A DNA stretch of 64,000 nt from Turneriella parva DSM 21527 (GTDB lineage Bacteria; Spirochaetota; Leptospiria; Turneriellales; Turneriellaceae), in assembly GCF_000266885.1 (NCBI RefSeq), contig NC_018020.1, positions 4,092,001-4,156,000 on the forward strand, in the 5' to 3' direction. The notes beneath the pieces were generated by a model. That model saw only the letters and a list, made by a program, of their open reading frames with translations. It made no database searches and was not told where the DNA came from. Position 1 is the first letter of the stretch, and each line of letters starts with the position of its first letter. A program made the position numbers and the translations under genes. Positions 45,788 to 57,060 of this stretch are shown here, piece by piece.

Positions 45788-47206
45788 TTAACTGTTATTA
45801 CACGCAGCGCCGTTGCGGCATTTGCGCAGATCGAGTACTGCTTTTTCTGTGATTATCGCCATCTCGGCGGTAGCGTTGCGCACGGCCCAGATTCCCGCGC
45901 GTGTCCAGACGGCGCGGTCAGATGAAGTGAGAATATCATAGCCCGAGCGCAGGCGGTTATGGTAGGTTCTGAAGACCTGCTCCATTAAAAGACGATTGAT
46001 ATTGCCCACAGGCGTGTTGTATCTGTTCTGCCATGAATTGGCATAAGCCTGGCTCTCACCGTAATCTTCGTAGTTTTTGTCGGCGTTGCTACCCCCGATG
46101 ACCCGGGTGCCATATTTCTCATCGGCATAACTTTCGTAATCGCCATGGTTATAGCCGATCGTCGACCAGATGTGCGCCTGCTGCGTCATGTCGCCCGCCC
46201 AGTGCTGCACGACGGTAAAATAGAGCATTTCAGCGCCCGTTACGGTGTAATAACGCCCCGCAATCGGGGCAGTCTGCAGTGAATGCCGGTTGTTGCCGTT
46301 CATCGAGGCTAGCCCCTCGAGCCACATTTCATTATAATAGAAAGCCGCCGCATTCGTTGCGGGTTCATAAATTACCCAATCTTCGTCGCCGCTGAAAAGT
46401 GTGCCCGCTCCCGGGTCGACGTTCGGAACCTGCGTCGTACCACCATACTCGGCGCCCTTATCGGGACAGCTGCCGATCAGCGCCACATCACTGAAACAGT
46501 TGTAATTTGTGCCATCAGCCTGCTCTGTCGCTTTGCTGCCGCTGCCATTCGAAACCGGCGTCGTAGAACCGTTTTGCTTGTAATCGATCGCCGGGTTTGC
46601 CTTGTACGTGTTGGATATCCCCTGCCATTCCTGGCAATTGCTGTCGCTGCAGTTGGGCAAATTCACCGACATCTGCGCGTTATTCATAAACACCGCAAGT
46701 ATATAATCGATGCCAATATTGGGAAAACCATAAGTTTGATTGTAGGCATAACCGTCGTAGGTATTGTAATTATTAGTCACGAGCGGGTCACCGTCTTCAT
46801 TCGTCTTGAGAAGATTCACGAAGTGATACCACGAAGTGAAGTTGTTCGAGTAAATGCCAAAATCGGGCACGTGCCAGCTAAAGAAAAGCAGGTCATCCCA
46901 AAAAGCGTCCCAGAAATAGTCGGGCTTAACCCCACCGACACGCTCGATGCTGAGTGCGCCGCACTGCGTATTGTTGCCATAAGACATTTCATTCGCGGTG
47001 TAGTTGATGTTGACGCAGGTGCCTGAATAGCGCCCACCAGCCTTTGCCTTCATGTAGTCTGCCACCCAGCGCATCTGGTTAGTGCCCTGAAACTCCATAT
47101 AGAGCATGCCCTCTTCTGGCATGTTCTGGTGCACGTTGACGATAAACGCCGATACCGCATTGACGCCAAAACAGACGACAAAGATCGCCAAAAACCTACG
47201 GAGCAT
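45788..47206 (-). CDS. Secreted zinc-dependent phospholipase C-like protein
   Basis: A 472-residue exported protein (signal MLRRFLAIFVVCFGVNAVSA). His335-Trp-Ala-Gly-Asp339 and His345, with His354 and Glu358 a little later, resemble the HYxGDxxxPxH...H...E zinc-site pattern of bacterial phospholipase C and S1/P1-like folds, with Tyr to Trp and Pro to Gln changes. A His near the mature N-terminus (His26) fits the same fold. Several Cys pairs suggest disulphides. The product may act on lipids or nucleic acid outside the cell. It overlaps the upstream gene by 11 nt and is last in the surface operon. Confidence 0.65.
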   Translation of the reverse strand: MLRRFLAIFVVCFGVNAVSAFIVNVHQNMPEEGMLYMEFQGTNQMRWVADYMKAKAGGRYSGTCVNINYTANEMSYGNNTQCGALSIERVGGVKPDYFWDAFWDDLLFFSWHVPDFGIYSNNFTSWYHFVNLLKTNEDGDPLVTNNYNTYDGYAYNQTYGFPNIGIDYILAVFMNNAQMSVNLPNCSDSNCQEWQGISNTYKANPAIDYKQNGSTTPVSNGSGSKATEQADGTNYNCFSDVALIGSCPDKGAEYGGTTQVPNVDPGAGTLFSGDEDWVIYEPATNAAAFYYNEMWLEGLASMNGNNRHSLQTAPIAGRYYTVTGAEMLYFTVVQHWAGDMTQQAHIWSTIGYNHGDYESYADEKYGTRVIGGSNADKNYEDYGESQAYANSWQNRYNTPVGNINRLLMEQVFRTYHNRLRSGYDILTSSDRAVWTRAGIWAVRNATAEMAIITEKAVLDLRKCRNGAACNNS

Positions 47207-47918
47207 GTTCTACCCTCACATGAAACCTGCCGCCCGACAGCATTTTGATTTCGCCGCTGCCCGACTGCGCCGCGAACCTGCCTGAACCTGAAAATGAACC
47301 CTGATACGACACTACTTTGCCGTTGACGACATTCGGCGTGAGCTGCAGCGTAAAATGCGTATCTCTGAAGGCTCCGTTCTGAATGACACCTGCGCCGGTT
47401 TCGAGCCGATTCTGGCGCGACATGCGTGTCCAGGCTGGTTTCACGCGGCGGTATTCGCTGCGCATCTTTTTGCGTTTTCGACGCGCATGAAACTTGCCAC
47501 GCAACCGATCTTGAATTTCAGCCGGTGATTCTAATTCATCTTCAAATTCGTCGGTTTCGATATTGACCTGCTCGACATAGGTAATGTTGGCATCTTTCGC
47601 TAGCTGCTGCTGGGGTAGCAGCGAGAACACACCCTGGCTGCTGCGCAGCGTTACGGCCAGATCGGTATCGGCCGAAGAAAGGTACAATGGTTGTTTCTCA
47701 TTGCCGGCAGCGACATCGGCTGAGAGCATCAGCAAGAATCTCTGGTTGATATCTTTCACCGCAACGACAATGCGTGACTTTCCGTTGCGCGTCGTGACAA
47801 GTGCTGCCGCATGCTGCGTCGCGTATGCGCGCCCACCAAGGCTAAACTGCAATTCACCCTCACCGAGGGCGACGAGCGGCGTGCACGCAAGCAATATTGT
47901 GACAGCGAAAATCCGCAT
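47196..47918 (-). CDS. Small secreted protein of the surface operon (240 aa)
   Basis: From ATG 47918, a signal peptide (MRIFAVTILLACTPLVALG) is followed by a beta-rich domain. A very basic stretch (about 148-175, RGKFHARRKRKKMRSEYRR) divides it from a second beta domain ending GGRFHVRVEHAP. No family is recognised. The frame extends to 48017, within the preceding gene, but ATG 47918 starts 1 nt after that gene's stop and begins a proper signal peptide. The basic patch could bind nucleic acid, lipid or LPS; that is only a guess. Confidence 0.82.
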   Translation of the reverse strand: MRIFAVTILLACTPLVALGEGELQFSLGGRAYATQHAAALVTTRNGKSRIVVAVKDINQRFLLMLSADVAAGNEKQPLYLSSADTDLAVTLRSSQGVFSLLPQQQLAKDANITYVEQVNIETDEFEDELESPAEIQDRLRGKFHARRKRKKMRSEYRRVKPAWTRMSRQNRLETGAGVIQNGAFRDTHFTLQLTPNVVNGKVVSYQGSFSGSGRFAAQSGSGEIKMLSGGRFHVRVEHAP

Positions 47919-47919
47919 G

Positions 47920-50673
47920 CTACTCGGTGCGAAGAATGTTGAAGAACCCTCTGAATGTTCCCGTGCTGACGTTCGCTGCAGCACCAGCCGCTGCGATCGG
48001 CCGTAGCTTACCGTCAAAACGACCGCGAATAATATCGCCTATAGGGCCATGCATGTCGATGGTTGCGTTGGCCGAACATTCGTTCAGATCAACACTCGGG
48101 CGTTCGCCTGGCCCGGCAACATATAGCAAATGCCCTGTGGCGTCATACCATGAAACGACAAGGTTGCCGTTGTTGGTGCCGCAATTGGTCGCGTAGGTCG
48201 CAGTCGGCGAAAGCATTGTGTTATAGTTCGACTGAACCTGCGCGGGGCCGGTCACGCGCACATCGAAGAAACCAAAAACGTTATCATTTTTGCCGCGAAC
48301 TTTGACGTAATACCAGCCTCTGAGCAGGTTAATCGGCCCGATGCGTCCGTTTGAGCCGGTGCCACTGTCATCGTCTGACCCGAGGTTCGCGCCGGTTTGC
48401 GCGGTGAGAGTGATATGCGTGTCTGTCGACCCGGTTGTTTCGATCGTGTACGAGCCGGGCTGCGCCGCATAGAAGTGATAGTACACGTAATTCTTGAGAT
48501 CCCAGGCATTCGTGCGGCTGTCAGCACCGATGCCTTCGGTGAGAACACCATTCGCAGCCGGCGAAGAGCCATTGGGATTTACAGGTACATGGTTCGACCA
48601 TTTGCCCTCAGGCACGTTCGGCAGAATGCGCGGTGTGTCGTCGAAATGCAGATATATACCGTCAAAATCGTAGGTCTTTTGTGGCAGCGATGAGGTTCGA
48701 ATCAGGTCGCCAGTTCTGCCTGAAATCGTCAAACCGGTCTTTTCGGTGAGAAATTTCTCGTATGTCTGTTTCGTCTGGTTTCTGAAATATTTTGAGCCCC
48801 CGTTAATCACGGCGTATATGCCGATGGGGTAAAGTCGCAGCTGATTGGTGCAATTAGACCCACCAGTCGGGCCGACACCAGATGCACCGCAGGCGAGCTG
48901 CGTATCGAGATTAAAGGGCGTTCCGGGGCACGCCGCAATACCGCTGTGCGTAAATTTGAAGGTCTGTTTTCCAACCTGTGTCTCGCCGGTATAACCCGTG
49001 CGCGAAATTTCGACATCAAAGGCGTTCACCGCCGTGTTGCCGAAGTTACCCTGAATTATGAACTGCCCGTTCGAAAGCGCGGGAAACCCACCCGAAGCCG
49101 CTGCAGGCCCTGTTGTCGCGGTACGCCAGCCACCGTCAAATATTGCAACCGTCGCCCCATCGACCGGCAGCGTCGACCAGTAATCGGTAACCGTACCCAT
49201 GACGCAGTGCGTCGGCGGCGGCAACGCAGTCATGGTCACGGCACCCGCGTTGTTGGCGCCCGCAATCGTGATGGTAATCAATGCAGGGTCATTCGGTGCC
49301 GACAGGCCAATGAGGCGCGAATAATAGCCGGATTTCTCAAATGTCATTTTATATTGCTGGTTACGCAATATGCTCGCATGATCGAACAGAAACTGGCCCG
49401 ACGCGTTGGTTGTCACCTCTGTAATGTAGGTGTTACTCGAATTATAGAGCTTTACCAGAACACCAGAACCGGCCGTGACCGTACCGTGTATCCATGAGTC
49501 CCACATGAGTGCTGTCGCTGCGCCAGCGATTGCGTTGTTGCCGGTTAACAATACGTCGGCGTAGGTTGTTTTCGTGCGGTAACAGTTCGTCGTCGCGGCA
49601 GTTCGGGCAGTGCAGGCGGCACTTGTTTTCGAAAGAGTCACCGGGTAGCGGGTACCGACAAGCAAGAACTGGTCTTTAATCTTAAATCCGCCGCCATTGG
49701 CTCCGTTCTGGTTGGTATTGAAATCATCGTCCATGTCGGGGCAATACAGGCCTGCCGCGAGAGGTTCATAAGGCGCTGAGCTGTTGGCATCGTATGGCCC
49801 GCCGCTATTGCAAGTCAATTGCTGGTTATTCGAGTTGGTCAGCGTGGCGCTGACATTGTTGAGCGCTGTGCCCAATGTGTCTTCAGTGATATGGCCATAT
49901 ATTGAGCCGAACTTCTGGTAGAGCCGAACAGGGTTATTACGAATCGGGTTTTCTTCTGCGGTGATCACGGCGACAATATCGGTGCGCGTGATGTAATCGG
50001 CTTTGTAGACACCAATGGCAAATGTTGACAATGCTTGGATATCCATTTCACTTATGCCATTGTCTCTCATCACTTGTTTTTCTTCATCGCTTGGTAATGG
50101 GAAATAGTTGCTCTCAAGTATAAATCGCCCATTTTCGTTTGTTGAAACAACTAGAACTTGACCCGCTGCGTCTGTTGTTGTCACGTTAGCGCCTATTAAT
50201 GGCTTGTAGGCAAAATTATCGTAAACTTGTCCCGTAATTCTTCTCAGACTTAGGCTCTCGTCAGCGCCGAAGGTAAACATCACTACATTACCAATATCAA
50301 CTTTTAGATTCGGTAGACTAATGACCGCTGCTCGGGCAGCGGACTTAAAATTGCTCTTGCTGAACCGCAGGTTAAAACCGGTGCCGCGCTTAACTTCGTT
50401 AAGGTTGATTGAAAATGAACCATTGTTGGCGGACGTCGTTTGCAGAACCTGCTCATTATCTTGCCTGCTAACCTGTATCTGCACGCTGGCGATGCCGGTG
50501 CCATCGGGCCCAACAACCTTACCCGAAATCTGCCCCGACCCGGTAACACCCGGCAGACTTTTTTCTGAAGTAAAACAGTTCAGGGTAAAGAGCGCGATCA
50601 ACATAATTGCCCACGAATTAATTCGTGGGCAATTATGTTGAAGAATTGCGGCACCATATTTTTTAAAAACCAT
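47920..50673 (-). CDS. Large lipoprotein with carboxypeptidase-regulatory-like repeats (917 aa)
   Basis: The chain starts at ATG 50673 (GGGGA-like Shine-Dalgarno, 11-nt overlap with the upstream gene). A long n-region leads to core WAIMLIALFTL and then Asn-Cys as lipid site (about residue 33). Repeated units of the GQISGKVVGPDGTGIASVQIQV type, YGHITEDTLGTALNNVSATL, and IHGTVTAGSGVLVKLYNS are carboxypeptidase-regulatory-like or CarboxypepD_reg domains. The later part has further beta domains, including a pre-peptidase-like segment (YTIETTGSTDTHITL...GWYYVKVRG, about 765-810). Surface-exposed adhesin or structural lipoprotein is likely. A second possible start, ATG 50604, lies at the edge of a 44-bp palindrome. 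Confidence 0.85.
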   Translation of the reverse strand: MVFKKYGAAILQHNCPRINSWAIMLIALFTLNCFTSEKSLPGVTGSGQISGKVVGPDGTGIASVQIQVSRQDNEQVLQTTSANNGSFSINLNEVKRGTGFNLRFSKSNFKSAARAAVISLPNLKVDIGNVVMFTFGADESLSLRRITGQVYDNFAYKPLIGANVTTTDAAGQVLVVSTNENGRFILESNYFPLPSDEEKQVMRDNGISEMDIQALSTFAIGVYKADYITRTDIVAVITAEENPIRNNPVRLYQKFGSIYGHITEDTLGTALNNVSATLTNSNNQQLTCNSGGPYDANSSAPYEPLAAGLYCPDMDDDFNTNQNGANGGGFKIKDQFLLVGTRYPVTLSKTSAACTARTAATTNCYRTKTTYADVLLTGNNAIAGAATALMWDSWIHGTVTAGSGVLVKLYNSSNTYITEVTTNASGQFLFDHASILRNQQYKMTFEKSGYYSRLIGLSAPNDPALITITIAGANNAGAVTMTALPPPTHCVMGTVTDYWSTLPVDGATVAIFDGGWRTATTGPAAASGGFPALSNGQFIIQGNFGNTAVNAFDVEISRTGYTGETQVGKQTFKFTHSGIAACPGTPFNLDTQLACGASGVGPTGGSNCTNQLRLYPIGIYAVINGGSKYFRNQTKQTYEKFLTEKTGLTISGRTGDLIRTSSLPQKTYDFDGIYLHFDDTPRILPNVPEGKWSNHVPVNPNGSSPAANGVLTEGIGADSRTNAWDLKNYVYYHFYAAQPGSYTIETTGSTDTHITLTAQTGANLGSDDDSGTGSNGRIGPINLLRGWYYVKVRGKNDNVFGFFDVRVTGPAQVQSNYNTMLSPTATYATNCGTNNGNLVVSWYDATGHLLYVAGPGERPSVDLNECSANATIDMHGPIGDIIRGRFDGKLRPIAAAGAAANVSTGTFRGFFNILRTE
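50598..50641. repeat. Perfect 44-bp palindrome within the signal-peptide code
   Basis: Arms of 22 bp without any loop (left arm starts TCAACATAATTGCCC). The palindrome lies inside the n-region of the 917-residue lipoprotein, where it encodes about QHNCPRINSWAIML. Its left edge contains the second possible ATG (50604). It shares no sequence with the other palindromes in the window. Confidence 0.85.
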
Positions 50674-51538
50674 AGATCCCCGTTTTGAAACCTGAGCTAA
50701 AATAGAAACCCTGCTCAGAAAATTCGTTTGTATTGAAAAAGCGGCTTTGAATTGGCCCGTAGGTGTTCAGCAGGCCCCTGAAGTATTGCCCTTCGAAAAA
50801 CCAAATATAAGACCCAAGGCGCAGCTCAAAGCCCAAGCCGCCCATAAACCCGCCAGATACCGGCCGAGCAAATTCACGCACGTCGTAGAGCTGGTCGTCG
50901 GGGTTACCGACGGTGCTGTTCAGAATTTCGAGTTGCGAAGAAAGCGGCGTTTTGGCGAAAAAGCCTGCCTGCAGGTTGCCCGCAAAAGGCTTCAACGCCT
51001 CTGCAACCGGGCGCAAAAATTTGACTTTGCCGAGTACCTTGTATAGCGAGTAGCGGTAAGAAAACATGCTGCGCAGCGCCAGATAATCGGTGCGCAGAAT
51101 GCCATTGCCCGCATAACCACCGGTCGGTGTTTCAACGATAAATGCCCGGTTCTGTTCGTAACCGAGATCGGTAATGATACCATAAACCCGTTTGAAATAA
51201 AGTTCGCTGCGAATACCGAGAATAACCGAAAGGTCAGACCCGCCGTTGTTGACCGAACCCTGCATGCCTTTTGCGAGGCCTGAATAATTAAACCCGAGAT
51301 AAGACCCCATGTAGAGCGTGCGCGATTTTGCCTCAGGGCCTTGAGAGGTCGTGTAATCTGCTTCGGCGGCCGCAGTCGAACTTGCGGGCTTAGAGAATTC
51401 AATCTTGCCCGAATCACCCGCCGAAGACGATGATTCAACTTCGGGAGAAACAGGTCGCTTGAGCTGAATCTTTCCTTCTGCCAAAAGCGCGCCTGTCAGT
51501 AGCAGCGACGCGAGATATGTGACCGGGTTAATCCGCAT
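50663..51538 (-). CDS. Outer-membrane barrel-like protein of the surface operon (291 aa)
   Basis: The signal peptide (MRINPVTYLASLLLTGALLA) is followed by a Ser/Ala-rich linker (about 35-70) and a barrel-like domain with alternating strands (YMGSYLGFNYSGL, DLSVILGIRSELYF, GFMGGLGFELRLGSYIWFFEG). It ends GIYGF, with the usual Phe. No named family. Genes for large lipoproteins flank it on both sides, 9 nt upstream and 11-nt overlap downstream; it may help to display or anchor them. Confidence 0.8.
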   Translation of the reverse strand: MRINPVTYLASLLLTGALLAEGKIQLKRPVSPEVESSSSAGDSGKIEFSKPASSTAAAEADYTTSQGPEAKSRTLYMGSYLGFNYSGLAKGMQGSVNNGGSDLSVILGIRSELYFKRVYGIITDLGYEQNRAFIVETPTGGYAGNGILRTDYLALRSMFSYRYSLYKVLGKVKFLRPVAEALKPFAGNLQAGFFAKTPLSSQLEILNSTVGNPDDQLYDVREFARPVSGGFMGGLGFELRLGSYIWFFEGQYFRGLLNTYGPIQSRFFNTNEFSEQGFYFSSGFKTGIYGF

Positions 51539-51547
51539 TCTTTACCG

Positions 51548-54500
51548 TTAGTTGCATGTACAGGTAGCCCCTGCTGTTGGCGAGGTGAAGTTGAAGCAAT
51601 TGGCGTTAGTACCCGCCGCCCCTGCATTGCCCGAGCTCGTGCCTGCGGTACCGCCGCCGCCGCCCGCGTAAGTGTTACCCGAACACGTGGGTGCAGCCGA
51701 TTGCACAATCGTCACGCCAATGGATGGGCCGCCATAACCACCCGACCCATGACCACCAGAACCACCGTCGCCGCCGAAACCGCCGTGACCACCATCACCA
51801 CCATCATCGGGCCCGTTGGCGCCAAGTCCGCGGGTGCCAGCACCGCCGCCACCGCCGCCGTTCTGGCCATTGCCTGCATTACCCCCGGCAGCCCGGGTAA
51901 TCGAGTTTGAGCTCAGGTTGATTGTGCTGATGCTGGCAAGGTAGATGCCAACCGAGGGACCTCCGGCATGGCCGCCTTCACCGCCATTGCCTTGTTGCCC
52001 GCCGCCGGCACCGCCGCCGCCGCTGCCGCCGCCGTCGTTCATATCGCATTCCGCGCCGGCCCCACCGCCGCCGCCACCGCCGCCCAGGCCCACACCGCCA
52101 TTATCACCGGTGCTGCCCTGGTAAGCGACGAGAAAACCACCGACGTTGCGGCCATAGGGCTGAGCGCCCGGTGGCGCTGGTGCGTTCGCGCCTGCACCAC
52201 CCGTAGCGCCATTACCTCCGCCGCCGCCGTTACCATTGCAATTTGACGTACCGCGCGGGCCACCGGCGCCGCCACCGTTCTGGCCCGCTGCACCATCACA
52301 ACCACCGCGCTGCCCGCATCCACTACCGCCGTCATCTTGCCAGCCGCCAGAACCGCCTGCACCGCCACCGTTGAACCCGGCGATGCCACCTGCACCGCCG
52401 GCGCCACCGGGTGCCAGCCAGCGGCTGTCGTTCGATTCGGCCACACCACCTTCGATGCCACCAGTACCATTACCGCCGTTACCGCCCGTCGCCCCGGTTT
52501 GCCCGCCAGAGCCTCCAGAAAGACCGCGCCAGCCCTGGCCCGCATTGATTGTATTTGAAGTCATGGTCACGGTATTCACGCCTGAAATGTGCACGCCGTA
52601 AGAGCCGCCTGGGTTCGGGCCACCTGCGCCGACGTTGTCACCCTGCGTGATAAACTGCGACTTATAGATGGTCAGAGACGAAACGCCCGTTGTGGCTCTC
52701 AGGCCAACTGCGTTATAGCCCTGCGTGAGGTCTGGCACCGGTCTCTGTGTTGTGAGACTAATGCCTTCGACGAATACCGGGGTGTTGACTGCCCCCAGGC
52801 TAATGCCGATGCTGTTCGCGCTGTCATTGCTGCCCGCGGTAATCGCGGCACGATTCGTGGCAACATCTGGTCTGTACCAGGCAGATGTAAATCCACCATA
52901 AATACTGGTGCCCGTCAGTAGATTAAGCGTGCCGGTCGTTGCACTGCAAGGCGGCGCGCCGTTGCCGCAATACGTACCACCAATAACATAGATTGCCTTA
53001 CCGCCTGTTGCTGCCGCGGCAGCCGAGCTCAATGAGCGCTTGGGTGCAGTGCGAACCGTACCGGGGTTAGCATCGTTACCGGTCGCGTTGTCGACGTAAA
53101 TCGACTCGCCTGCGGTTTTGTTTTGCAATACGAAATATTTCAGAGTAGATGTGCCACCGTTTGTCGCAGTGCCCCAAGAGGGTGCCACGGCGGCGGGTGA
53201 ACAAGGCGACGGCACGCCCGCGATGTCGCAGAGTTCAATCGCGACATTAAACGCAAGGGTTGTCACGTTATTCGTAAGGGGAGGCGCAATCTGGTAAGTT
53301 GTGTAGATTCCCTGCGCGTTTGGTGCTCCGACACCAGAGGGCAGCGCACACGCATTGTTCGCGTCAACTCCTGTAGAACCTGCCGGACAGGTGAAGGTGA
53401 GCGACTTAATGACACCAATCGGCTCGAACATATCGGCATCGACGTCGAAGGTAATCGTTTCGCCTTTATTCCAATGTACACGCGCGTAGACCGTGTTCAT
53501 GTTTTTCGGCTGAACCCGCCAAATAGCACGCGATGCTATACTCGGTGTACCGGGGCCACCCGATGGAAAAAGACAAATCTTAACATCGTTGATATTATTG
53601 GTATTAAGATCACTCGCATTGATTGTGATCGTCGTCGGTGTCAGCGCAGCAACTGTGCCGGTCGCGCTGGGCGCATGCGATGACAGGCTACCCCCCGTGC
53701 AATCGAGGGTGCCGTCATTGATACGCACCTGGTATGTTCCGGGAAAGTCAGTCTGCCATTGCCACGTCGTTGTATCGCGGGGTGCAGCGACCGCTGTCGC
53801 CGAATTACCCCAGTTATTGGCAACTGTCCAGACATGTTTTGCCGCCGGAGTGATCGTGGTAATCTGTGGGTTTACGCCGATTGCATAGGCCTGCGTCTGC
53901 ACGGGCGAAACGTTTCCGGCCGCGTCGCGGGCGATGAACTTCAGATAATAGATGCCGGGCGTGAAAGGGCACGCACTCGGATTGGCATTCACATCGGTGA
54001 CACTCGCACGCGAGTTGCAACCGAGGTTCAGCTGCGTACTGCTGCTGCCAGTCACATGCACAACATTATTGGCAGCCGGGCATGGGAAAACAGGATTCGC
54101 AGGGTTTGTCGCAGGCGTCGGGTTGCCAGATGCGTCCGCGCCCCAAGTATAACAGATTTCGTTTGGTATCAGAGAGCCATTCGCTGGCACACCTGCAACC
54201 GTCGTTGAACCTGATAAGAAAATCTGCTGTGGCAATGAAAACATGCCGCTGAGAGGTGAGGCGGTAATAGAAGGCGCCGTATCGTCACGAATCACCGTTT
54301 CAAACGCATCACCCCAAACAGAGAGGTGGCCGACCGCATTGCATGCAGCGACTTCGCAGGTGATGGCACATATGGTGATGTAATTGATGCCATGGTTGGT
54401 ATCGTTGAACAGCATGCCAGACGCCGTCGCCGAAATGTTCGTCGTCACAGTATCGCCCGACGTGAACGGGCCACCGGTAATGACGCCGACCGGCGGTGCG

Positions 54501-56107
54501 AGGTATTGCGCGCGCGTGTAGCCAATGCATGAACCATTGACGGCGATCAGATAACGAAAGGGTTTCGTGAGGCTGCCTGTATCGGCAGTCCACTGGAATG
54601 ATGCGGTCGTGCCTGCTGTGTTCGAAACGTAGCGGTTGCCGACGCTGATAATCGAAATATCGGGTTTGCGACCGATGGTGAAAGTAATCTGCTGAATCCC
54701 AGAGGTACGGCCTGCCGCATCACGCACCATATACTTCATTATGTAATTGCCAAAAGGCAGGTTCTGGAATGAAATCGTGCCGCTGTCACCGGGTTTAATG
54801 GCGTGCATGGTGCCCGAATAATCTACCCCGGTTGGGTCAAGGTTTGTGCTCGAGAAGTTCGGGTCGACTGGCGTCACACCATTACCCAGGCTGTACGTCA
54901 CCGAGTTACAGGCAACCCTGTCTGAACAGAGAATGTTCACATCCATCGGGGCCGCATAGAATTCGTTGTTGCGAATGGGCGAAATGATCGGCATCGGGTT
55001 GCCCTGGTCGACGAAACCCGGGTCGACGCGATCGAGCGCAATTTTGCCGAGAATGTTATTCGCGATCGTGTTGTTATTCAACACATCAAAGCCAATTACC
55101 TGACCATGGTCGAGTGCTGCATAGAGCAGATCATTGGTCTCATCGATCATCGGGTTTTTGACGATCAGCTTTGCGACAGCCCCCGAACCGTCTGAATTTG
55201 TCATCACCTGCGAGGTGCCGTCGGCATTCGTGTAAAGGTAATAATCGGCGTTGGTATCACCGTTTACATCGAGGCCCACTGTCGGGGTTACCGGCCAGGT
55301 AAAGAGCATTTGCGGAATATAGCGTTTGCCGTCGGCATTCGTATCTTCAGGGTCATAAGTCACCGTGCAGTTGCCGTCGGCGTCGAGTTCTGAAACGATG
55401 ACGTCAGCGGGCGCAACGACCGCGTCGGCGCCCGCCCCCGTATCGCCTGTTAGCGTCACGGTCGGCTGCGCCGTATAAAGCCCGTCACCCGGTTCGAGCA
55501 GATACACATTCTGCAATCCGCCACCGGCGACATGAACGCCGGCGGTCGCACCTGAACCGCCGCCACCGGTGATGGTGACGACCGGCGCTGCATAACCAGA
55601 CCCCTTCTGCAGCATCGAGATGCGCGTGACGCGGCCGCCGCTTGCGCCTGTAACCTGCGCCGTCGCGGTTGTGCCCGCGCCCGGACCGCTCAGCGTAACG
55701 TTAAAGCTATTGCTCGTGCAGCCCGAGCCCGAATTGGTAATGACAATGCGCTCGACGCGGCCGTTCGCGACGACGGGTACCGCCGTTGGGTTGACTGTAC
55801 AGGTGCCCGAAGGGGTCAGCGTGACTGTCGGCGAATTCGTATAGCCCGAGCCAGATGAATTGACGGTAAATTGTTTAATGCCACCCGTGCGGCAGACGTA
55901 GAGACCGTCCATTTTGCCGTCGTAGTTGATGTCAATCGCCTGCACTTTAATATTGAGACCGAGAGTTGCTGAAAGGGATTTCGGCGCTGCATTGTAGCTC
56001 ACGCCGCCGAAGCCCTGAAAGTCATCGGATTTTTTCTTTTTCGCGCAGGCGGCAAACAGGGCCGCGAGGGCGATTAGCAAGAAAAGTTTTTTTGTTTTGT
56101 CTTTCAT
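51548..56107 (-). CDS. Giant lipoprotein with Ig-like, beta-helix and Gly-rich parts (1519 aa)
   Basis: Lipobox LFAAC puts the lipid on Cys21. Early repeats (SGSGYTNSPTVTLT, GSGYAAPVVTIT, GDGLYTAQPTVTLT) and EF-hand-like loops (DINYDGKMDG, DTNADGK) come first. Several Ig-like beta domains follow to about 1010. A parallel beta-helix-like part (about 1050-1190, starting IYVDNATGNDANPGT) then leads to a Gly/Asn/Ala-rich tract (about 1190-1490) that recalls PE_PGRS proteins. The C-terminus has four Cys. The whole build is that of a surface adhesin or matrix protein. It starts 9 nt after an outer-membrane protein gene. The Gly-rich DNA is repeat-prone, so strain variation in length is likely. Confidence 0.88.
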   Translation of the reverse strand: MKDKTKKLFLLIALAALFAACAKKKKSDDFQGFGGVSYNAAPKSLSATLGLNIKVQAIDINYDGKMDGLYVCRTGGIKQFTVNSSGSGYTNSPTVTLTPSGTCTVNPTAVPVVANGRVERIVITNSGSGCTSNSFNVTLSGPGAGTTATAQVTGASGGRVTRISMLQKGSGYAAPVVTITGGGGSGATAGVHVAGGGLQNVYLLEPGDGLYTAQPTVTLTGDTGAGADAVVAPADVIVSELDADGNCTVTYDPEDTNADGKRYIPQMLFTWPVTPTVGLDVNGDTNADYYLYTNADGTSQVMTNSDGSGAVAKLIVKNPMIDETNDLLYAALDHGQVIGFDVLNNNTIANNILGKIALDRVDPGFVDQGNPMPIISPIRNNEFYAAPMDVNILCSDRVACNSVTYSLGNGVTPVDPNFSSTNLDPTGVDYSGTMHAIKPGDSGTISFQNLPFGNYIMKYMVRDAAGRTSGIQQITFTIGRKPDISIISVGNRYVSNTAGTTASFQWTADTGSLTKPFRYLIAVNGSCIGYTRAQYLAPPVGVITGGPFTSGDTVTTNISATASGMLFNDTNHGINYITICAITCEVAACNAVGHLSVWGDAFETVIRDDTAPSITASPLSGMFSLPQQIFLSGSTTVAGVPANGSLIPNEICYTWGADASGNPTPATNPANPVFPCPAANNVVHVTGSSSTQLNLGCNSRASVTDVNANPSACPFTPGIYYLKFIARDAAGNVSPVQTQAYAIGVNPQITTITPAAKHVWTVANNWGNSATAVAAPRDTTTWQWQTDFPGTYQVRINDGTLDCTGGSLSSHAPSATGTVAALTPTTITINASDLNTNNINDVKICLFPSGGPGTPSIASRAIWRVQPKNMNTVYARVHWNKGETITFDVDADMFEPIGVIKSLTFTCPAGSTGVDANNACALPSGVGAPNAQGIYTTYQIAPPLTNNVTTLAFNVAIELCDIAGVPSPCSPAAVAPSWGTATNGGTSTLKYFVLQNKTAGESIYVDNATGNDANPGTVRTAPKRSLSSAAAAATGGKAIYVIGGTYCGNGAPPCSATTGTLNLLTGTSIYGGFTSAWYRPDVATNRAAITAGSNDSANSIGISLGAVNTPVFVEGISLTTQRPVPDLTQGYNAVGLRATTGVSSLTIYKSQFITQGDNVGAGGPNPGGSYGVHISGVNTVTMTSNTINAGQGWRGLSGGSGGQTGATGGNGGNGTGGIEGGVAESNDSRWLAPGGAGGAGGIAGFNGGGAGGSGGWQDDGGSGCGQRGGCDGAAGQNGGGAGGPRGTSNCNGNGGGGGNGATGGAGANAPAPPGAQPYGRNVGGFLVAYQGSTGDNGGVGLGGGGGGGGAGAECDMNDGGGSGGGGAGGGQQGNGGEGGHAGGPSVGIYLASISTINLSSNSITRAAGGNAGNGQNGGGGGGAGTRGLGANGPDDGGDGGHGGFGGDGGSGGHGSGGYGGPSIGVTIVQSAAPTCSGNTYAGGGGGTAGTSSGNAGAAGTNANCFNFTSPTAGATCTCN

Positions 56108-56116
56108 GTTTATCTC

Positions 56117-57004
56117 TCAGTACTTGAAAATCACAGCGCCAAATTTGTACGCAAACCCGGCATAAGCCCCGTAGTGCATCACGGGTAACACGTTATCGTA
56201 AATCAATCCGCCTCTGATCTGCAGAAATGGTACAAGTTCGTCGGTTCTGTCGGTTCGCTTCATCGACATCGGAAACTCAATACCCAGCACAACATGCCCG
56301 GTAAACTTCAGCGCCGAGCCCTGCCCGTTTGCGTCTTTGAAATTGTAGTAACCCAAACCCGGCTGAATCGCCGTGACAAATTGCAGCGGCATCTTCGGCA
56401 CACGGTAAAGCCAGGCCATGCCGATCTCGCCATAAAAACCCGTGATCGCCGAAACATCTTTCGTGATGTTCAGATAACCTGCCTCAAAGCGCAGGTCAAA
56501 ACCCTTGCCCTTCGATTCGTCCGCGTCGTAGGCGAAAAAAGCGCCCCACCCTGTTGTGGACGGTAATCGCGCATCTCTTTTGCGTTCTTCAGGCAAGTCA
56601 TCCGGATTTACCGCCCCACGACCGACATTCATAAAGTACGTTCCCGCGACCGAGAACCGTGAGTTGTCGAGAATCGTTTCTTTCGGGCGCGCAGCGAGCG
56701 GTGCGACCTGGTCTGTCGGCCCGTCATCTTTCGGCTTCTCTTTTGGCAGCTCGACCTCGCCCTTCTCGTTGGTCTTGTGCAGCGCCTTCTTGCGCTCTTC
56801 TTTTTCGTCGTCGTCGCCTTTCAGCTCAATCGGCTTCGACTTGAGGCCGCCGGTGTCTTTCTTCTCTTCGGGTAGTTCATCGTCAAAAAAACTTTCACTG
56901 TCTTGCGCATGCACATGCGCTGCGGGCATAAAAATTGCTGCCGCCGCTATAAGAAGGCGCAGTGCGGATTTCTCAAGTACTGTCAGTATATACGTCGGGC
57001 GCAT
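56117..57004 (-). CDS. Outer-membrane barrel-like protein, first gene of the surface operon
   Basis: ATG 57004 begins a signal peptide (core LRLLIAAAAIFMPAAHVHA); GTG 57022 in the same frame adds six residues. After the signal comes a highly charged Lys/Glu/Asp stretch (to about 100), then a barrel-like domain with alternating strands (FSVAGTYFMNVGRGAV, FDLRFEAGYLNI, YGAYAGFAYKFGAVIFKY). No family is recognised. It shares the layout charged or Ser-rich linker plus barrel with the protein at 50663. It is separated by 113 nt from the hairpin-ended cinA gene, so the operon promoter is expected just upstream. Confidence 0.8.
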   Translation of the reverse strand: MRPTYILTVLEKSALRLLIAAAAIFMPAAHVHAQDSESFFDDELPEEKKDTGGLKSKPIELKGDDDEKEERKKALHKTNEKGEVELPKEKPKDDGPTDQVAPLAARPKETILDNSRFSVAGTYFMNVGRGAVNPDDLPEERKRDARLPSTTGWGAFFAYDADESKGKGFDLRFEAGYLNITKDVSAITGFYGEIGMAWLYRVPKMPLQFVTAIQPGLGYYNFKDANGQGSALKFTGHVVLGIEFPMSMKRTDRTDELVPFLQIRGGLIYDNVLPVMHYGAYAGFAYKFGAVIFKY

Positions 57005-57060
57005 GTATCGGGATTTCCCCACAGATATACCGCCCGACGCGGGCCTTCTGTGCCAAAAAT

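Follow-up and report, generated by a model that had tools for sequence, protein, structure and literature searches.

This study examined a 64,000-nucleotide window of the genome of the free-living spirochete Turneriella parva DSM 21527 (contig NC_018020.1, positions 4,092,001 to 4,156,000 of the forward strand), in which six consecutive minus-strand genes, here termed P1 to P6, occupy window positions 45,788 to 57,004. These genes form a genuine operon unit, and its ancient core consists of P3, P4, P5 and P6 plus P7, a foldase gene that is not visible in the window because it is sited elsewhere in the genus Turneriella. An earlier note on this DNA, made from the sequence alone, had placed the enzyme P6 at the end of an assembly of barrels and lipoproteins. 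However, the enzyme is the centre of the system, since P5-P6 modules occur without either barrel and the core comprises P3 to P6 plus the foldase; the barrel and lipoprotein view of the operon misses this core. The operon may instead encode a foldase-dependent secreted or surface-associated phosphodiesterase system, a reading to which we give an even chance and in which the surface location and the substrate are presumed.

Synteny was searched at class level in 48 genomes (for P4, in 13 genomes of the family) and phylum-wide in 393 genomes, together with a scan of named genomes. All six genes were found in unchanged order in G045 (locus L080) and in G040 (L081), which belongs to a different genus. 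The matching order was also present on broken contigs in G039, G043, G044 and G047, and P3 to P6 only were found in G036. This recurrence in other genera indicates that the grouping of P1 to P6 is not due to chance. In the synteny search that the earlier note had proposed, homologs were therefore co-located across genera rather than scattered. G031, from another family of the order, carries a P3-like gene, P4, P5 and P6 together (L095), with P1 and P2 not adjoining; G220 (L154), a distant spirochete of another family, has P3, P4, P5, P6 and P7 in order without P1 and P2. The G220 barrel is related to P3 (hhalign E 5.7e-12), and the G220 P4 ortholog shows 29% identity across its full length; further P4 orthologs lie in L080, L081, L083, L084 and L095. 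Since P1 and P2 are absent from the G220 locus and are not beside the G031 cluster, this pair is a lineage-specific add-on of the Turneriellaceae. The P4 of G031 is apparently split into two frames of 166 and 1050 amino acids (L095:3326-6975), by a frameshift or an assembly error.

P6 (45,788-47,206, minus strand) is an exported protein, and its motifs and predicted fold support its placement as an enzyme of the zinc phospholipase C (PLC)/P1 nuclease superfamily type, with zinc presumably bound (P1 nuclease denotes the enzyme, not gene P1). His26, Asp96, His128 (the 'HF' motif), His335, Asp339, His345, His354 and Glu358 are kept in 16 P6 relatives (residue numbers are those of the full protein; the numbering of alignment A1 is one lower). 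The putative metal-binding block His335-x3-Asp339-x5-His345 ... His354-x3-Glu358 (46,133..46,204, minus strand) is invariant in the 16-sequence alignment. The same H-x3-D-x5-H block followed by H-x3-E occurs in the proteins of L127 and L155 and in a second PLC-like protein of T. parva (PLC2), and the motifs of the G220 P6 read AFWDEAH, WTHF, HYAGDANALVH and NHSDYEE. In the zinc PLC of Bacillus cereus and in P1 nuclease, the N-terminal residue of the mature protein is the first metal ligand. Where the signal peptide is predicted to be cleaved, five residues ahead of the invariant His26, the 16 aligned relatives, L127 and PLC2 have an aromatic residue (F/Y/W). In T. parva P6 this residue is Phe21 (47,144..47,146, minus strand), at the Trp1 position of zinc PLC and P1 nuclease; Trp is the exception here and not the rule.

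The AlphaFold model of P6, though of low confidence, points in the same direction. Its top 12 VIA-align rows (best Z 7.2) were all S1/P1-type nucleases, clostridial alpha-toxins or phosphatidylcholine-preferring PLC (PC-PLC), the next unrelated row reached Z 3.4, and the superfamily alignment begins at the N-terminal aromatic. Foldseek alone returned nothing significant for P6, so that among the structure comparisons of P5 and P6 the VIA-align results were the informative ones, and hhalign linked P6 to the more canonical PLC-like protein of L127 (Prob 98.5). P6 appears to share ligand motifs, a predicted aromatic mature N-terminus and, in its low-confidence model, an alpha-helical fold with B. 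cereus PC-PLC, clostridial alpha-toxin and SmNuc1, and it resembles PC-PLC in having Glu as the last ligand. Unlike these enzymes, it has a long insert and stands in an operon with predicted outer-membrane partners. Several Turneriella genomes have two to four copies of P6. At L100:10436-14369, a P6 paralog lies directly behind a lipoprotein that looks heparinase-like.

P7 is an exported protein of 400-460 residues, mostly with a lipobox. Its alignment profile matches the structures of the foldases HP_0175, PrsA and PpiC (best E 1.6e-6), which assigns it by sequence to the PrsA/SurA-type foldase lipoproteins with a PpiC-type rotamase domain. P7 directly follows P6 in six loci (L081, L083, L084, L095, L154 and L155), and a P7-related protein lies shortly behind the P6-like enzyme of L127 (G187), with one short overlapping open reading frame (ORF) called in between. 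In the genus Turneriella, P7 is found outside the operon at a separate conserved site (1,430,369-1,431,592 in T. parva). Across the 393 genomes, P7 was present in all 14 that have P6, even where the two genes are unlinked, and in only 2 of the remaining 379, both by weak matches. Counted by genus, P7 occurs in 8/8 genera with P6 versus 2/160 others (Fisher p 3e-12), a value that overstates the case since most P6 genera belong to one clade. G187 and G220, however, fall outside that clade.

A similar pairing is seen with the second T. parva enzyme. PLC2 is a very divergent PLC-like exported enzyme (motifs 'AWKGQTH...HYIEDASQPHH...DHTDFE') that is directly followed by a PpiC-type foldase lipoprotein (L174:8938-11375, ~3.175-3.177 Mb). 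This pair also occurs in G042 (L197), and enzyme copies without an adjoining foldase are found in L199 (G042) and L198 (G043). The second-type enzyme of G043 (L198) is duplicated. In Listeria, full phospholipase activity depends on PrsA2, which also plays a part in the folding of PlcB (PMC3921577). PrsA2-PlcB is the closest working precedent for a link such as that of P6 with P7: there, as in other foldase-dependent exoenzymes, a parvulin-type lipoprotein foldase is likewise tied to a secreted PLC-type enzyme. The present case differs in that the foldase gene goes with a single enzyme family, either by linkage or by constant co-occurrence, and in that the cell is diderm.

P5 (47,196-47,918, minus strand; 240 amino acids) is, according to its model, an exported soluble beta-barrel with a basic segment. 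The AlphaFold model is good, with a predicted local distance difference test score (pLDDT) of 85.9. Its fold resembles that of LpqH, the 19-kDa lipoprotein of Mycobacterium tuberculosis (4zjm; VIA-align Z 11.9, root-mean-square deviation (rmsd) 2.3, 108/112 residues), followed by OmpW and TbpB barrels at Z 8-9. P5 shares 6% identity with LpqH and differs from it in having double the length and a basic helical insert and in not being a lipoprotein. Foldseek by itself found no significant match for P5 (its hits were PsbO and fluorescent-protein barrels at rmsd above 20), and there was no match in Pfam, NCBIfam or PDB profiles, no LpqH sequence match and no lipobox. P5 paralogs stand behind a lipoprotein of ~1000-1300 residues in L088, L089, L092 (T. 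parva, 2.976 Mb) and L093. The L088 copy, on which Pfam was run, has two phospholipase D (PLD; HKD) stretches and an LTD domain, and the other copies are 66-72% identical to it or to each other. The giant lipoprotein of the T. parva copy (L092:9527-14270) has an extra repeat insert of ~300 residues. In L088 and L089, a P6 paralog comes next after the P5 paralog, so that P5-P6 modules occur beside a PLD-domain lipoprotein and without either barrel. Being found beside P6 and beside PLD-domain lipoproteins, P5 travels with two unrelated phosphodiesterase-type kinds.

The nature of the substrate can be considered from the ligands. In this superfamily, the last ligand is Glu in phospholipases C and Asp in S1/P1 nucleases; the final Glu358 therefore favors a PLC, and a lipid would be the preferred substrate of P6 on this evidence. 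Alternatively, P6 may be a nuclease of the P1 type and the lipoprotein with PLD domains in the paralogous loci a NucT-like nuclease, the two scavenging nucleotides or phosphate from DNA and RNA. The short spacing of 5 between the aromatic residue and His resembles that of P1 nuclease (W1/H6), the P6 model is also structurally near SmNuc1 (Z 5.6), and the PLD-domain partner resembles NucT below the cutoff and carries an LTD domain, which is common in secreted nucleases. However, PLC and alpha-toxin structures outrank the nucleases (Z 7.2 vs 5.6, in a poor model) and Glu358 is the ligand of the phospholipases, so that an extracellular nuclease system appears unlikely to us.

Several points weigh against a phosphodiesterase system of the phospholipase kind. 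The AlphaFold model of P6 is poor (pLDDT 41.7), and these data do not separate PLC from S1/P1 nuclease. P6 had no match in Pfam, NCBIfam or PDB sequence profiles, including any PLC family, and is therefore assigned to no described family of the superfamily; it also carries a large insert between the ligand motifs. The best scores of the PLD-domain partner, although far below the cutoff, were with models of the nuclease NucT. The peptidyl-prolyl isomerase domain of P7 is weak, matching Pfam Rotamase_2 below the cutoff only, and the co-occurrence of P6 and P7 lies mostly within one clade. Finally, we infer both the surface location and the protein-protein contacts.

The remaining genes are the two barrel-type genes and their large lipoproteins. 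P3 (50,663-51,538, minus strand), the first gene of the ancient core, has a Ser-rich N-terminal linker and is probably one of the OMP_b-brl_2 outer-membrane beta-barrels: 4/8 members of its family match that model (best E 2.7e-10), with the P3 of the window itself unmatched and a weak alternation test (z 0.3). P1 (56,117-57,004, minus strand; ATG start, with a longer GTG start at 57,022) is exported, has a charged linker and is probably a small outer-membrane beta-barrel, as its aromatic C-terminal residue and a weakly alternating pattern (z 2.0) suggest; it had no match in Pfam, NCBIfam or PDB profiles, and its orthologs adjoin P2 in relatives. P1 and P3 were also considered as paralogs, which was rejected (hhalign Prob 0.2). 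For the two barrels named in the earlier note, no specific porin family was assigned, half of the P3 family matching the generic OMP_b-brl_2 model. P2 (51,548-56,107, minus strand; 1519 amino acids) is a lipoprotein with the lipobox FAAC. Its residues 1201-1500 contain 41-45% Gly, its middle shows weak similarity to immunoglobulin/OmpL47-like domains, and its C-terminal third resembles a beta-helix whose loops are rich in Gly. The C-terminal 500 residues recur in stand-alone lipoproteins of other Leptospirae. Such P2-like lipoproteins of ~600 amino acids, in a conserved neighborhood, lie at L096:9353-11146, L105:2824-4611, L112:9644-11410 and L116:8740-10605. P4 (47,920-50,673, minus strand; 917 amino acids) is a lipoprotein (lipobox TLNC) with four CarboxypepD_reg stretches (E 1.2e-20), a PPC match below the cutoff and a conserved C-terminal region. 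The lipobox cysteines of P2 and P4 are spirochete-type by sequence.

A barrel-type gene directly precedes its large lipoprotein gene (P1-P2, P3-P4) wherever both share one contig, and the P3-P4 pair extends to the distant G220. The earlier note had seen these pairs as partners for lipoprotein display, in which P1 and P3 would carry or thread their own giant lipoproteins to the surface, as Slam does for TbpB, with the enzyme as cargo. To our knowledge, the routes of spirochete lipoproteins to the surface are incompletely described, which leaves room for such a mechanism, and Slam-type surface lipoprotein assembly likewise sets an outer-membrane barrel beside a large lipoprotein gene. However, P1 and P3 would be small barrels of another family, with neither DUF560 nor a TPR domain (Pfam, P1 and P3 family members), and searches matched neither of them to a Slam or Omp85 model. 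The P3 family matches a small generic barrel model, and the ~190-220 barrel residues suggest 8-10 strands, which would be too narrow for a translocon. The two barrels also lack a detectable relation, and P5-P6 modules exist without any barrel. The pairing of the genes is therefore upheld, but display as its purpose is unsupported, since P1-P2 is lineage-specific and the furthest-conserved part is P3 to P6 plus P7; we regard display as improbable.

The other descriptions in the earlier note agreed with the analysis. Its six genes, with their sizes and spacing, were identical in the ORF list, and all products are indeed exported, with hydrophobic N-terminal signals in 6/6. The Gly-rich P2, the carboxypeptidase-regulatory-like repeats of P4, the export signal and basic segment of P5 and, by motif and fold, the PLC-like character of P6 were all borne out. 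From P1 to P6, the genes are separated by a gap of 9, a gap of 9, an overlap of 11, a gap of 1 and an overlap of 11. Promoter-like sites inside the operon were not in excess (7 vs 7.8 in shuffles) and gave no support for splitting it; a single transcript of P1 to P6 is therefore plausible. Terminator-like sites (23 vs 14.7) gave no interpretable signal. Upstream, cinA lies on the same strand, 131 bases ahead of the P1 ATG; downstream, a low-molecular-weight phosphatase gene is convergent with P6, three bases apart. A foreign island was rejected on composition, the guanine-cytosine content being even over the region save for the Gly-rich stretch.

Taken as a foldase-dependent phosphodiesterase system, the operon might work as follows. 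P6 would be exported by Sec, and signal cleavage would expose the aromatic N-terminus Phe21, which may complete the tri-zinc site of a PLC/P1-nuclease-type fold. P7 may help P6 fold after translocation. P5, as a close companion, probably binds P6 itself or an anionic ligand such as phospholipid. P3 and P4 may hold the set to the outer membrane, and P1 and P2, the addition of the Turneriellaceae, probably give the surface a long extension. The system would likely serve to release fatty-acid-bearing products from phospholipid for growth; the release of nucleotides from nucleic acid is less likely. Alternatively, the targets of the enzyme and the large lipoproteins may be the membranes of neighboring cells or hosts, and not nutrients. 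The predicted P6 fold is shared with membrane-damaging phospholipases, and an environmental Turneriella is implicated in Hydra tumor formation (PMC7081986), but the operon showed neither a delivery system nor a host-directed domain, and such a role in interaction or predation seems very unlikely.

The phosphodiesterase system may be a dedicated outer-membrane module, hitherto undescribed, of diderm spirochetes (P3-P4-P5-P6-P7), which would fold a metallo-phosphodiesterase in the periplasm and hold or release it at the surface. P5 would be the specific partner of this enzyme, and surface lipoproteins peculiar to certain lineages (P2 and the PLD-domain lipoproteins) would serve as exchangeable parts. 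We put this forward tentatively, as a doubtful extension. The enzyme and the foldase are of known kinds, and their combination with P3, P4 and P5 would be the new element; in a limited search, this combination had no counterpart in family libraries or the literature. T. parva produces lipase and obtains carbon and energy from long-chain alcohols and fatty acids (PMC3746428). This way of life is in keeping with a secreted enzyme of the phospholipase type that is accompanied by a foldase and by partners in the outer membrane. If the reading is correct, P5, P6 and P7, families without annotation, would gain a joint function, and the spirochetes of T. parva's order would possess a conserved, testable route that starts with a foldase and leads to a secreted enzyme of the phospholipase type at the outer membrane; their growth on long-chain fatty acids, already known, would then have a concrete enzyme system behind it.
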